A stretch of DNA of 64,000 nucleotides from Desulfitobacterium metallireducens DSM 15288. Its GTDB lineage: Bacteria > Bacillota > Desulfitobacteriia > Desulfitobacteriales > Desulfitobacteriaceae. The position numbers were made by a program, and so were the translations under genes. The stretch is from assembly GCF_000231405.2 (NCBI RefSeq), contig NZ_CP007032.1, positions 2,046,001-2,110,000 of the forward strand, given 5' to 3'. Each line of letters begins with the position of its first letter. The first letter of the stretch is position 1. This document shows, piece by piece, positions 33,187 to 35,507 of this stretch. Below the pieces are notes generated by a model that was not told the DNA's origin, did not search any database, and was given only the letters and a program-made list of their open reading frames with translations.

Positions 33187-34851
33187 TTACACTTGGAGTA
33201 AAACCGGTAATATCATTGGACGACGACGCGTTTTATCCCAGAAATAATTACTCAAGCTTTCATGGATCGCAGCTCTCATTACTCCCCATTCCCAACTTTC
33301 CTGTTTTAGTTGAACCTCAATAGCTACCGTCGCATTGTTTTTCGCTCCCTCGATCAAATCGTTGGCTTCTTTCATGAAGGTGAATCCACGAGAAATAATA
33401 TCCGGACCCGATACAATCGAATGGGGAACGCCCTTACCTCGGGTTAAGCCAACAACGACAACGACAACCCCATCTTTAGAGAGTTGTTTACGATCTCGAA
33501 GGACAATTTGTCCAACATCTCCGATTCCCAAGCCATCAACATACACGCTTCCTGCTTCAACTCTGTCCCCTATTTCCATTTTTTCCGGAGTTATCACAAC
33601 CCGCGTACCCAGTTGAGTAATGGGGATTTGCTTTTCCTCATAGCCCAGTGATTGACCAATCTTACGTAAAGCCACTTGGTGACGAACTTCTCCATGATGA
33701 GGAATCAAGAATTTGGGCCGGGTTAAACGAATCACGAGTTTAATCTCTTCTTGACACGCATGACCTGATACATGTACAAGCCCCATGTCTTTAGTCACAA
33801 CTTCTGCACCGATTTGATACAAATGATTGATCGTTCTCCCAATCAGCTTCTCATTTCCGGGAACAGGGGTTGCCGATATAATCACTGTATCCCCTGGGGC
33901 AACATTAACTTGACGATGATTTCCTGTGGCCATTCGTGTTAAAGCGGCAAACGGCTCTCCTTGACTCCCTGTTGTTAGCACTAATAAACGAGAATGTGAA
34001 AAATTATTAATCTCACCCACATCCACCAACATATCCTCTGCTGGCAAATGCAAGTATCCTAGCTCGTGTGCTGTTCTTACAACTTGTTCCATGCTTCGAC
34101 CCACAACACAAACTTTTCGCTTTAATTCCATGGCAGCATCAATCGCCTGCTGAATTCGATGCACATTTGAAGCAAACGTTGCCATGATAATTTTTCCCTC
34201 AGCACGGGCAAACCAATCCCTAAGGGTTTTCCCCACCACTCTTTCAGACATCGTCATCCCCGGGCGCTCCGCGTTAGTAGAATCACAGAGAAGCGCCAGC
34301 ACTCCCTCTTGACCCCATTCTGCTAGTTTACTCAAATCCATCTCATGCCCATCAATCGGCGTGTAATCGACCTTAAAATCTCCTGTATAAATTACCCGCC
34401 CAACAGGGCTCAATAAGGAATATCCTACAGCATCGGGAATGCTGTGAGTAACGCGAAATGCTTCCACTTCAAATTCGCCAGCCTGTACTGGTTTACCCGG
34501 CTCAAGCACCCGAAATAGAGAGTCCGGATACCCTCCACGTTCTTGAACTTTAGCACGAACTAACCCTATCGTCAGCTTAGTCGCATAGACGGGAACATTC
34601 AGTCTTGGCAAAATAAAAGGCAAGCCTCCAATATGATCCTCATGCCCATGAGTCACAAAGATACCCTTAATTTTATCCTTCCTTTTTTCTAGATAACTAA
34701 TATCAGGAATCACTAAATCAATTCCTAATAATTCATCATCCGGAAATTTTACCCCACCATCGATCACGACAATCGAATCTTCATATTCAAAAACAAGCAA
34801 GTTTTTCCCAATCTCACCTGTTCCACCCAAAGGAATAATATTTAGTTTCAT
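33187..34851 (-). CDS. rnj: ribonuclease J
   Basis: 554 residues, full length. Metallo-beta-lactamase zinc site THGHEDHIGGLPF, the beta-CASP region LCDSTNAERPGM and ATFASNVHRIQQAID, VSGHACQEEIKL and PHHGEVRH. 5'-3' exo- and endonuclease of mRNA decay. Its AGGAGG site lies inside a long hairpin with sequence upstream (34854-34915), which suggests control of translation or autoregulation. Confidence 0.96.
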   Translation of the reverse strand: MKLNIIPLGGTGEIGKNLLVFEYEDSIVVIDGGVKFPDDELLGIDLVIPDISYLEKRKDKIKGIFVTHGHEDHIGGLPFILPRLNVPVYATKLTIGLVRAKVQERGGYPDSLFRVLEPGKPVQAGEFEVEAFRVTHSIPDAVGYSLLSPVGRVIYTGDFKVDYTPIDGHEMDLSKLAEWGQEGVLALLCDSTNAERPGMTMSERVVGKTLRDWFARAEGKIIMATFASNVHRIQQAIDAAMELKRKVCVVGRSMEQVVRTAHELGYLHLPAEDMLVDVGEINNFSHSRLLVLTTGSQGEPFAALTRMATGNHRQVNVAPGDTVIISATPVPGNEKLIGRTINHLYQIGAEVVTKDMGLVHVSGHACQEEIKLVIRLTRPKFLIPHHGEVRHQVALRKIGQSLGYEEKQIPITQLGTRVVITPEKMEIGDRVEAGSVYVDGLGIGDVGQIVLRDRKQLSKDGVVVVVVGLTRGKGVPHSIVSGPDIISRGFTFMKEANDLIEGAKNNATVAIEVQLKQESWEWGVMRAAIHESLSNYFWDKTRRRPMILPVLLQV

Positions 34852-34853
34852 TA

Positions 34854-34915
34854 AAAAAACCTCCTCGAGAAGCGATCTAATTCATAGACAAAGCTTGCCC
34901 CGAAGGAGGTTTTTT
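34854..34915 (-). promoter_or_regulatory. hairpin that sequesters the rnj Shine-Dalgarno and ends efp
   Basis: AAAAAACCTCCT-CG (34854-34867 on the plus strand) pairs with CG-AAGGAGGTTTTTT (34901-34915). On the minus-strand RNA the upstream arm AAAAAACCUCC is an anti-Shine-Dalgarno and the downstream arm holds AGGAGG of rnj followed by a U7 tract. The same structure looks like a rho-independent terminator of efp. Confidence 0.7.
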
Positions 34916-34949
34916 AATTCGTTATACTATTATACTAAAAGCTTAATAA

Positions 34950-35507
34950 TTAAGCACGTTGCACATAGTTTCCTGTACGAGTATCGATGATTAGAACTTC
35001 ACCTTCATTGACAAAGAAAGGAACCTGTACAATCGCTCCTGTTTCCATCGTTGCCGGTTTTGACCCCCCGGTAGCCGTATCTCCTTTAACCCCAGGTTCC
35101 GTATGAGCTACAACTAATTGTACCGTATTGGGAATATCCACACCAATAACTGTTCCATTAAAGAAAAGGACCCCTAAATTCATATTTTCCTTAAGCCATT
35201 TAACACCGTCTCCGATTTGTTCTTCAGTCAGAGTGGTCTGTTCATAGCTTTCATTATCCATGACTGCGTAAAGCTCTCCATCTTTATAAAGGTATTGCAT
35301 ATCATGACGTTCAACATGAGCTGTTTCAACTTTTTCGCTGGCATTAAATTTTCGTTCAGTAACTCCACCCGTTTTTAAATTCTTAAGTTTCGTACGTACA
35401 AAGGCAGCACCTTTTCCTGGTTTAACATGTTGGAACTCAACAATTGAATAAACGTCACCATCAAGTTCAATCGTAAGACCCGTCTTAAAATCGCTAGTAG
35501 AAATCAT
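34950..35507 (-). CDS. efp: elongation factor P
   Basis: 185 residues, full length. Domain I loop [23 protein letters not shown] with the conserved lysine position, NESYEQTTL, and C-terminal [24 protein letters not shown]. Relieves ribosome stalling at polyproline. Efp after an M24 peptidase gene is a standard Firmicutes order. Confidence 0.97.

Follow-up and report, generated by a model that had tools for sequence, protein, structure and literature searches.

In the window, the 64,000-nt stretch of DNA analysed here, the gene for elongation factor P (efp) and a gene for an RNase J family ribonuclease (rnj) are both encoded on the minus strand, in head-to-tail order with 98 nt between them. 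An earlier note on this DNA had placed a hairpin between the two genes, with correct coordinates, and had read the AGGAGG of rnj and the U7 that trails it as its 3' arm, which is borne out by the sequence and by the computed fold of the minus strand. The features of the locus, in the order in which they are transcribed, are the following.

34950 to 35507, minus strand: efp, elongation factor P, 185 aa, the upstream gene (open reading frame; NCBIfam PRK00529 and TIGR00038 above cut-off)
34916 to 34920, minus strand: predicted -35 box GAATT of a sigma-F/G type promoter (matrix trained on sigG promoters; conserved spacing of its 'AT')
34905 to 34915, minus strand: 5' arm of the hairpin, AAAAAACCTCC, within the 15-nt promoter spacer at 34901 to 34915 (sequence and fold)
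34891 to 34900, minus strand: predicted -10 element GGGCAAGCTT, of the GGnnAnAHTR type (invariant G1, G2, A5 and T9; sigG -10 matrix)
34885, minus strand: predicted transcription start, an A 6 nt past the -10 element (from the sequence; A at an equal distance in 25 of 28 loci)
34860 to 34865, minus strand: Shine-Dalgarno sequence (SD) AGGAGG of rnj, the core of the 3' arm (sequence; all four G of GGnGG kept in every one of the 28 loci)
34853 to 34859, minus strand: U7 tract, probable tail of the efp terminator and spacer between the SD and the start of rnj (sequence; at least 6 T in 10 nt in 28 of 28 loci)
33187 to 34851, minus strand: rnj, RNase J family beta-CASP ribonuclease, 554 aa, the efp-linked paralog (open reading frame; TIGR00649 above cut-off; Pfam RNase_J_b_CASP and RNase_J_C)

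Read 5' to 3' on the minus strand, the hairpin (34918 to 34849) consists of the AAAAAACCTCC arm, an imperfectly paired top of about 40 nt and then GAGGAGGTTTTTTTAATG, with a stem of about 15 bp and with 8 nt between the SD and the AUG of rnj. The minus-strand fold of positions 34845 to 34949 has an energy of -29.6 kcal/mol, against -17.4 kcal/mol (sd 3.2) for shuffled sequences (z -3.81; none of 200 shuffles as good). As expected for an inverted repeat, the plus strand of this stretch likewise folds stably (z -3.32; matched by 2 of 200 shuffles). By fold and sequence, a G+C-containing stem is followed by a U-tract, as in an intrinsic terminator, and the hairpin is probably the terminator of efp. 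It was not listed by a consensus terminator scan with a loop limit of 8 nt, and a scan for sigma-A type promoters listed no minus-strand site between efp and rnj. Rfam gave no match at gathering score in the window stretch or in six related loci, the only weak overlap at the window hairpin being Phe_leader (23.7 bits against a gathering score of 55).

The SD of rnj is deeply buried in RNA that reads through from efp. Its computed probability of being unpaired is 0.0009 (median of 237 genes sampled from this genome, 0.376), and rnj ranks eighth of 1001 genes for SD burial in the 1.66 Mb of this genome that were covered.

Conservation of the hairpin

A protein search in 100 related genomes recovered rnj orthologs in 28 genomes of the family at 72-100% identity (window included), while the next matches stand at 54% identity. 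Synteny places efp directly upstream of rnj in all 28 loci, with 77-240 nt between the efp stop codon and the aligned rnj start. In every one of these loci the SD lies within the 3' arm of the hairpin, the U-tract is kept after GGAGG, and the SD is buried in the stem of the upstream-derived RNA, with an unpaired probability of at most 0.003. The presence of the hairpin in all 28 loci and the rank of rnj for SD burial together mean that it is not due to chance. The aligned first residue of rnj is not a start codon in at least 20 of the 28 loci, where the real start, as judged by eye, is an AUG, UUG or GUG right behind the U-tract.

Conservation of the pairing, which the earlier note had proposed as a check, was upheld for pairing as a whole and not for the number of covarying pairs. 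Among 27 distinct rows, standard pairs make up 84.2% of pair cells, a share that falls to 47-69% once the partner is displaced by 1-3 columns, and 15 cells are changed on both sides against a shuffle mean of 5.1 (0 of 500 shuffles as high). The same rows contain five pairs with a double-sided change, which is not above shuffles (105 of 500 reach 5), and the count of further pair types is likewise not above shuffles (72 of 500 reach it). RNAalifold on the MAFFT alignment kept five SD/anti-SD pairs only, with no double-sided change; the SD side cannot vary. In the anti-SD arm, C20 and T21 are invariant and the remaining C positions vary from C to U only, with pairing kept; above and below the SD, pairs have changed on both sides in places, and the top of the hairpin is variable in size and pairing among loci.

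Two of the 28 loci depart from the common gene start. In genome G016 (L028) the rnj frame is interrupted near its N-terminus (match from residue 36, three TGA), pointing to a pseudogene or a sequence error, and the extrapolated start lies one base off, which fits the interrupted frame. In genome G007 (L004:3151-3277, minus strand) a 19-codon frame starts at the AUG that follows the U-tract and, by eye, overlaps the aligned rnj AUG at its end; it may be an upstream frame or encode a leader peptide. In RNase J genes of greater distance (class f4, L032-L040), the open frames extend further at the N-terminus, and no such hairpin was seen at the aligned start.

Promoter-like positions and computed release of the SD

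The consensus for sigma-F and sigma-G consists of a -35 of GnATR, a spacer of about 15 nt and a -10 of GGnnAnAHTR. In the alignment of all 28 rows (window-row numbering), the columns that are fixed besides the SD, the anti-SD arm and the U-tract are A15, G28, G29, A32, T36 and A43, and A10 and T11 are found in 27 rows, the remaining row having a gap. When taken without gaps, the decamer keeps GG, A5 and T9 (GGnnAnnnT) in 28 of 28 loci. The 'AT' of the -35 lies 15 nt before the -10 in 26 loci and 14 nt before it in L004 and L026, and an A occupies the sixth base after the -10 in 25, the aligned A being 3 nt off in L009 and 8 nt off in L012 and L020. Promoter positions leave the fixed A15, which lies in the spacer, unexplained. 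The bases fixed outside the SD, anti-SD and U-tract appear mostly to spell a forespore sigma-F/G promoter and its start point. These counts leave out L360 (Paradesulfitobacterium ferrireducens), which shares its site with L020 and possibly its species, and two further matches beside it at 24% identity. For C. difficile, the available part of one report associates a G before the -10 with sigma-F and an A after the -10 with sigma-G (PMC3789822).

So as not to depend on a general consensus, we used the sigG promoters of the same genomes as a reference. Boxes of the form GAATA-N15-GGGCATACTC or close variants were found in 23 of 24 sigG loci, with the pattern GAATA (once GCATA)-N15-GGGnATA(A/C)T(C/T), and the window's own rnj site reads GAATT-N15-GGGCAAGCTT. 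Under a matrix trained on 7 distinct sigG boxes only, the full rnj site of the window scores 11.8 bits; among 798,800 background positions of this genome a fraction of 3.1e-5 attain that score, as do 2 of 100 shuffled intergenic regions. With the -10 matrix alone, the hairpin decamer is the best in its own intergenic region at 27 of 28 loci, window included. The -10 of the window is without the consensus A at position 7 and the purine at position 10, and its -35 is without the R. Genus g7, the source of 21 of the 28 loci, mostly has ACATG as its -35, and full sites score weakly there: the best full-site score is reached by 12 to 82 of 100 shuffles in 19 of these 21 loci, compared with 0 to 5 of 100 outside g7, and the best full site lies elsewhere in L009, L010, L011, L015, L017, L019 and L021. 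The case for a promoter in g7 is one of conservation and of the -10. With these deviations, at the window's site and in g7, the layout of a sigma-F/sigma-G promoter is present in the sequence. The genome itself is of a sporulating kind, encoding SASP, SpoIIR, GPR and SigG; a hand score based on a general consensus gave no consistent sigma-F site in GPR and SASP leaders.

RNA starting at the predicted promoter would be without the 5' arm, so that its SD should be freer than in read-through RNA. The computed folds agree in 28 of 28 loci, with a median unpaired probability of 0.328 and values above 0.3 in 15 (for L001, L002, L012, L020 and L028 the -10 was set one base downstream and the assumed start shifted by one base). 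In the window's own genome, where the 5' arm would be absent from promoter RNA as elsewhere, the release is small (0.000 to 0.042), because a short CUUC..GGAG leftover hairpin, recognised by eye, remains; exposure is also low in L002 (0.059), L003 (0.014) and L021 (0.094). Among the sigG leaders of the same genomes (24 fetched, 21 scored), 12 combine a read-through value below 0.05 with a more than 5-fold release. As a second positive control we took the spoIIR leaders, of which 25 were fetched and 18 retained, 2 being too short and 5 falling below the promoter score. The strict burial cut was passed by none of the 18, although in several of them (L218, L220, L225, L227, L233, L235, L240, and L222 of the window's genome) exposure is lower in read-through RNA than in promoter RNA.

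Related hairpins and alternative explanations

A covariance model built from the rnj hairpin was searched in genomes of the order and of the phylum, and gave matches in 44 of 73 genomes (E up to 0.01) and in 34 of 398 genomes (E up to 1e-4), respectively. It often matches both strands and is therefore not specific, and several of the inspected matches resemble ordinary bidirectional terminators. A conserved hairpin was found in eleven f3 genomes, followed by a gene that by eye starts with TTG just past the U-tract, and also in G019, of the same family, with an ambiguous gene start; two of the proteins behind it were scanned (L088 and L104) and both contain the Cell Wall Hydrolase domain Hydrolase_2. 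In L052 (G000:C1:2748758-2748810, minus strand), L086-L091, L094-L098 and L104, a secreted cell wall hydrolase gene has its SD buried by this second conserved hairpin, of the form AAAATCAC...GGGAAAG..TAG...GAGGTGATTT. The gene upstream of the hairpin differs between the window's genome, where the copy was recognised by eye, and f3. SpoIID-like genes lie behind model matches in three loci from three other families of the phylum (L154, L160 and L163; one Pfam-scanned, two by eye), the SD-burying hairpins being placed between an S4-domain-like gene, identified by eye, and the SpoIID-like gene. The 5' halves of the hydrolase and SpoIID-like hairpins contain sigma-F/G-shaped sites that score 2.1 to 9.2 bits, L098 having a different best site, and these low to middling scores make the sites leads only. 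In L114 and L101 (genomes G005 and G034), where no efp-linked rnj is present, a hairpin follows efp whose top by eye resembles that of the rnj hairpin, which suggests either loss of rnj or an older efp terminator.

Some of these matches bear on a simpler reading, that the element is no more than the efp terminator, its 3' arm having been recruited as the SD of rnj, with low constitutive expression of rnj by leak and no developmental promoter. Hairpins that follow efp in relatives without rnj at that place (L114, L119, L121) agree with it, as do ordinary-looking terminators with CCTCC/GGAGG stems that score with the model (L092, L099, L100, L102, L103). However, read-through RNA would be almost untranslatable, so that leak would be a poor source of rnj, and the fixed AT, GG/A/T and A positions would be left without explanation; we consider this reading unlikely.

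The earlier note had further suggested that RNase J itself could cut or bind the hairpin and so regulate its own gene; in a broader form of this model, another RNase such as RNase III would do so, with feedback on rnj. Autoregulation via the own mRNA is known for other RNases, for example RNase Y (available part of PMC10303841), and a double-strand RNase would find a stem of sufficient length. At least 25 of the 28 genomes encode another RNase J of about 48-51% identity, whose leaders in the seven genomes covered (the window's own, five others from the family and one from the order) have the SD unpaired at 0.07-0.63, none of them comparably buried. Similar hairpins precede genes that do not encode RNases, no further RNase gene lies behind any inspected model match, and the element is not one that RNase genes share to the exclusion of unrelated genes. 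The conservation of the loop, moreover, is explained by promoter positions. Feedback by an RNase thus found no support in these comparisons and seems to us quite improbable. More improbable still is a ligand- or protein-responsive riboregulator, with a riboswitch-like terminator and SD platform and the loop as its sensor: although conservation of GGGGCAAA, on the 5' side, exceeds that of the strand it pairs with, there is no Rfam match at gathering score, the hairpin top is of variable size and pairing, and by eye no conserved alternative fold or antiterminator was seen upstream of the hairpin, where the intergenic region is as short as 77 nt.

A proposed gate for rnj and its known counterparts

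The reading that we favour, and hold to be likely, is that a forespore-type promoter for rnj is nested in the efp terminator hairpin, that the hairpin blocks leaky expression of rnj, and that this RNase J is specific to sporulation. The hairpin before rnj would then probably be a two-way gate, and the start signal within it looks built to switch RNase J on in the developing spore only. A sigma-F promoter, possibly also used by sigma-G, would occupy the 5' half of the hairpin. In vegetative cells, most efp transcripts would stop at the hairpin, and those that read through would carry both arms, so that the rnj SD would be buried and no RNase J would be made from them. In the forespore, RNA polymerase loaded with the sigma factor would recognise the two promoter boxes on either side of the 5' arm and initiate at 34885, in the loop, giving a leader of about 34 nt without the 5' arm and with an exposed SD. 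The efp-linked RNase J would thus be a sporulation-specific second copy. We infer termination, promoter use, the compartment and the role of the enzyme in spores from what was seen directly, namely the hairpin, its conservation, the burial of the SD by computed fold and the promoter-like fixed positions. The proposal of the earlier note that one hairpin serves two roles is retained for the burial of the SD and, given the U-tract in all 28 loci, for the likely terminator of efp, and it is given up for regulation by RNase J; the open state of the hairpin, which it had assumed to let both transcription and translation proceed, may not be needed, because transcription could start past the 5' arm.

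Under the nested-promoter reading, an apparent riboregulator becomes a developmental gate in which spacer, arm, terminator and SD use the same few bases. It predicts that a second RNase J in this family is made in the forespore, which, if true, bears on the clearance or storage of spore mRNA. An RNase J is listed among proteins extracted from Moorella spores in the available part of PMC8745062. The locus also serves as a warning that conserved SD-burying hairpins in spore-formers may be disguised promoters, and suggests a route to new sporulation genes from sequence alone.

Buried SDs were surveyed in the same 1.66 Mb of the window's genome, with 987 of the 1001 genes in the motif test after 14 identical copies were dropped. 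The list of most buried SDs and the control list contained 30 genes each, and 20 were scanned from each, rnj not counted. Sporulation families were found in 4 of the 20 top genes vs 0 of the 20 controls (YlmC/YmxH and SigF above their cut-offs, BofA and YqfC below). Enrichment of buried-SD genes in nested -10 motifs was not significant, with p values of 0.07-0.59 for single motifs and 0.19-0.32 for either motif, apart from 0.018 at the loosest cut. The third most buried SD of the 1001 genes (L175:6700-6801, plus strand) precedes the gene of a protein that is GH18-like by eye and has no NCBIfam match; its loop contains CATAAACT, which is like a sigma-E -10. In L339:5365-5465 (minus strand), the hairpin that contains the SD of a D-Ala-D-Ala carboxypeptidase-like gene has at its 5' arm GGAAATACTA, which fully matches the -10 consensus of sigma-F, and in RNA starting past this decamer the SD is 0.85 unpaired. 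It is a tentative idea, to which we give somewhat less than an even chance, that in this order of spore-formers sporulation-sigma promoters are commonly nested in SD-burying, terminator-like hairpins as a key in its lock, and that one of them marks a forespore-specific RNase J, implying that an RNA-decay enzyme is loaded into the spore.

Among known systems, riboswitch expression platforms exist that act on transcription and translation at once. The rnj hairpin is like such platforms in that one terminator-like hairpin buries the SD, and differs from them in that neither an aptamer nor an alternative fold was found and in that the bypass would be by a promoter and not by refolding. In a search that reached few subscription journals, we found no literature that ties RNase J to a forespore promoter or that describes terminator-nested forespore promoters.

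A closer counterpart is sigG (spoIIIG) of B. subtilis, for which, according to the available part of PMC5942855, a large hairpin is predicted to block translation of read-through from the spoIIG promoter. The same source states that this hairpin cannot form in RNA from sigG's own promoter, and that a small RBS hairpin is kept, damping translation 2-4 fold. As far as this account goes, the likeness lies in a gene behind another transcription unit with its SD in the 3' arm, and in a forespore promoter whose RNA cannot form the hairpin, which for rnj is a prediction. The sigG genes of the genomes analysed here have the same promoter type and burial signature as rnj. By the same account, the rnj case differs in that the gene is an RNase J paralog and not a sigma factor, that the upstream gene is the housekeeping efp, and that the hairpin ends in a U-tract and is therefore probably also a terminator. 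In phage T4, early long RNAs hide the SD of gene e (lysozyme; PMC3014915) and of I-TevI (PMC2988022), and RNAs from late promoters, which are without the 5' part of the structure, are translated, as the available parts of both reports describe. From what is described there, T4 and rnj share a long RNA that hides the SD and an RNA from a later promoter (predicted here) that is without the 5' part; T4 uses a phage late sigma factor, whereas rnj is predicted to use a sporulation sigma factor, and no terminator role is described for the T4 hairpins in the available parts of PMC3014915 and PMC2988022. By mechanism, the arrangement proposed for rnj is of the sigG and T4 type, with a probable terminator in addition.
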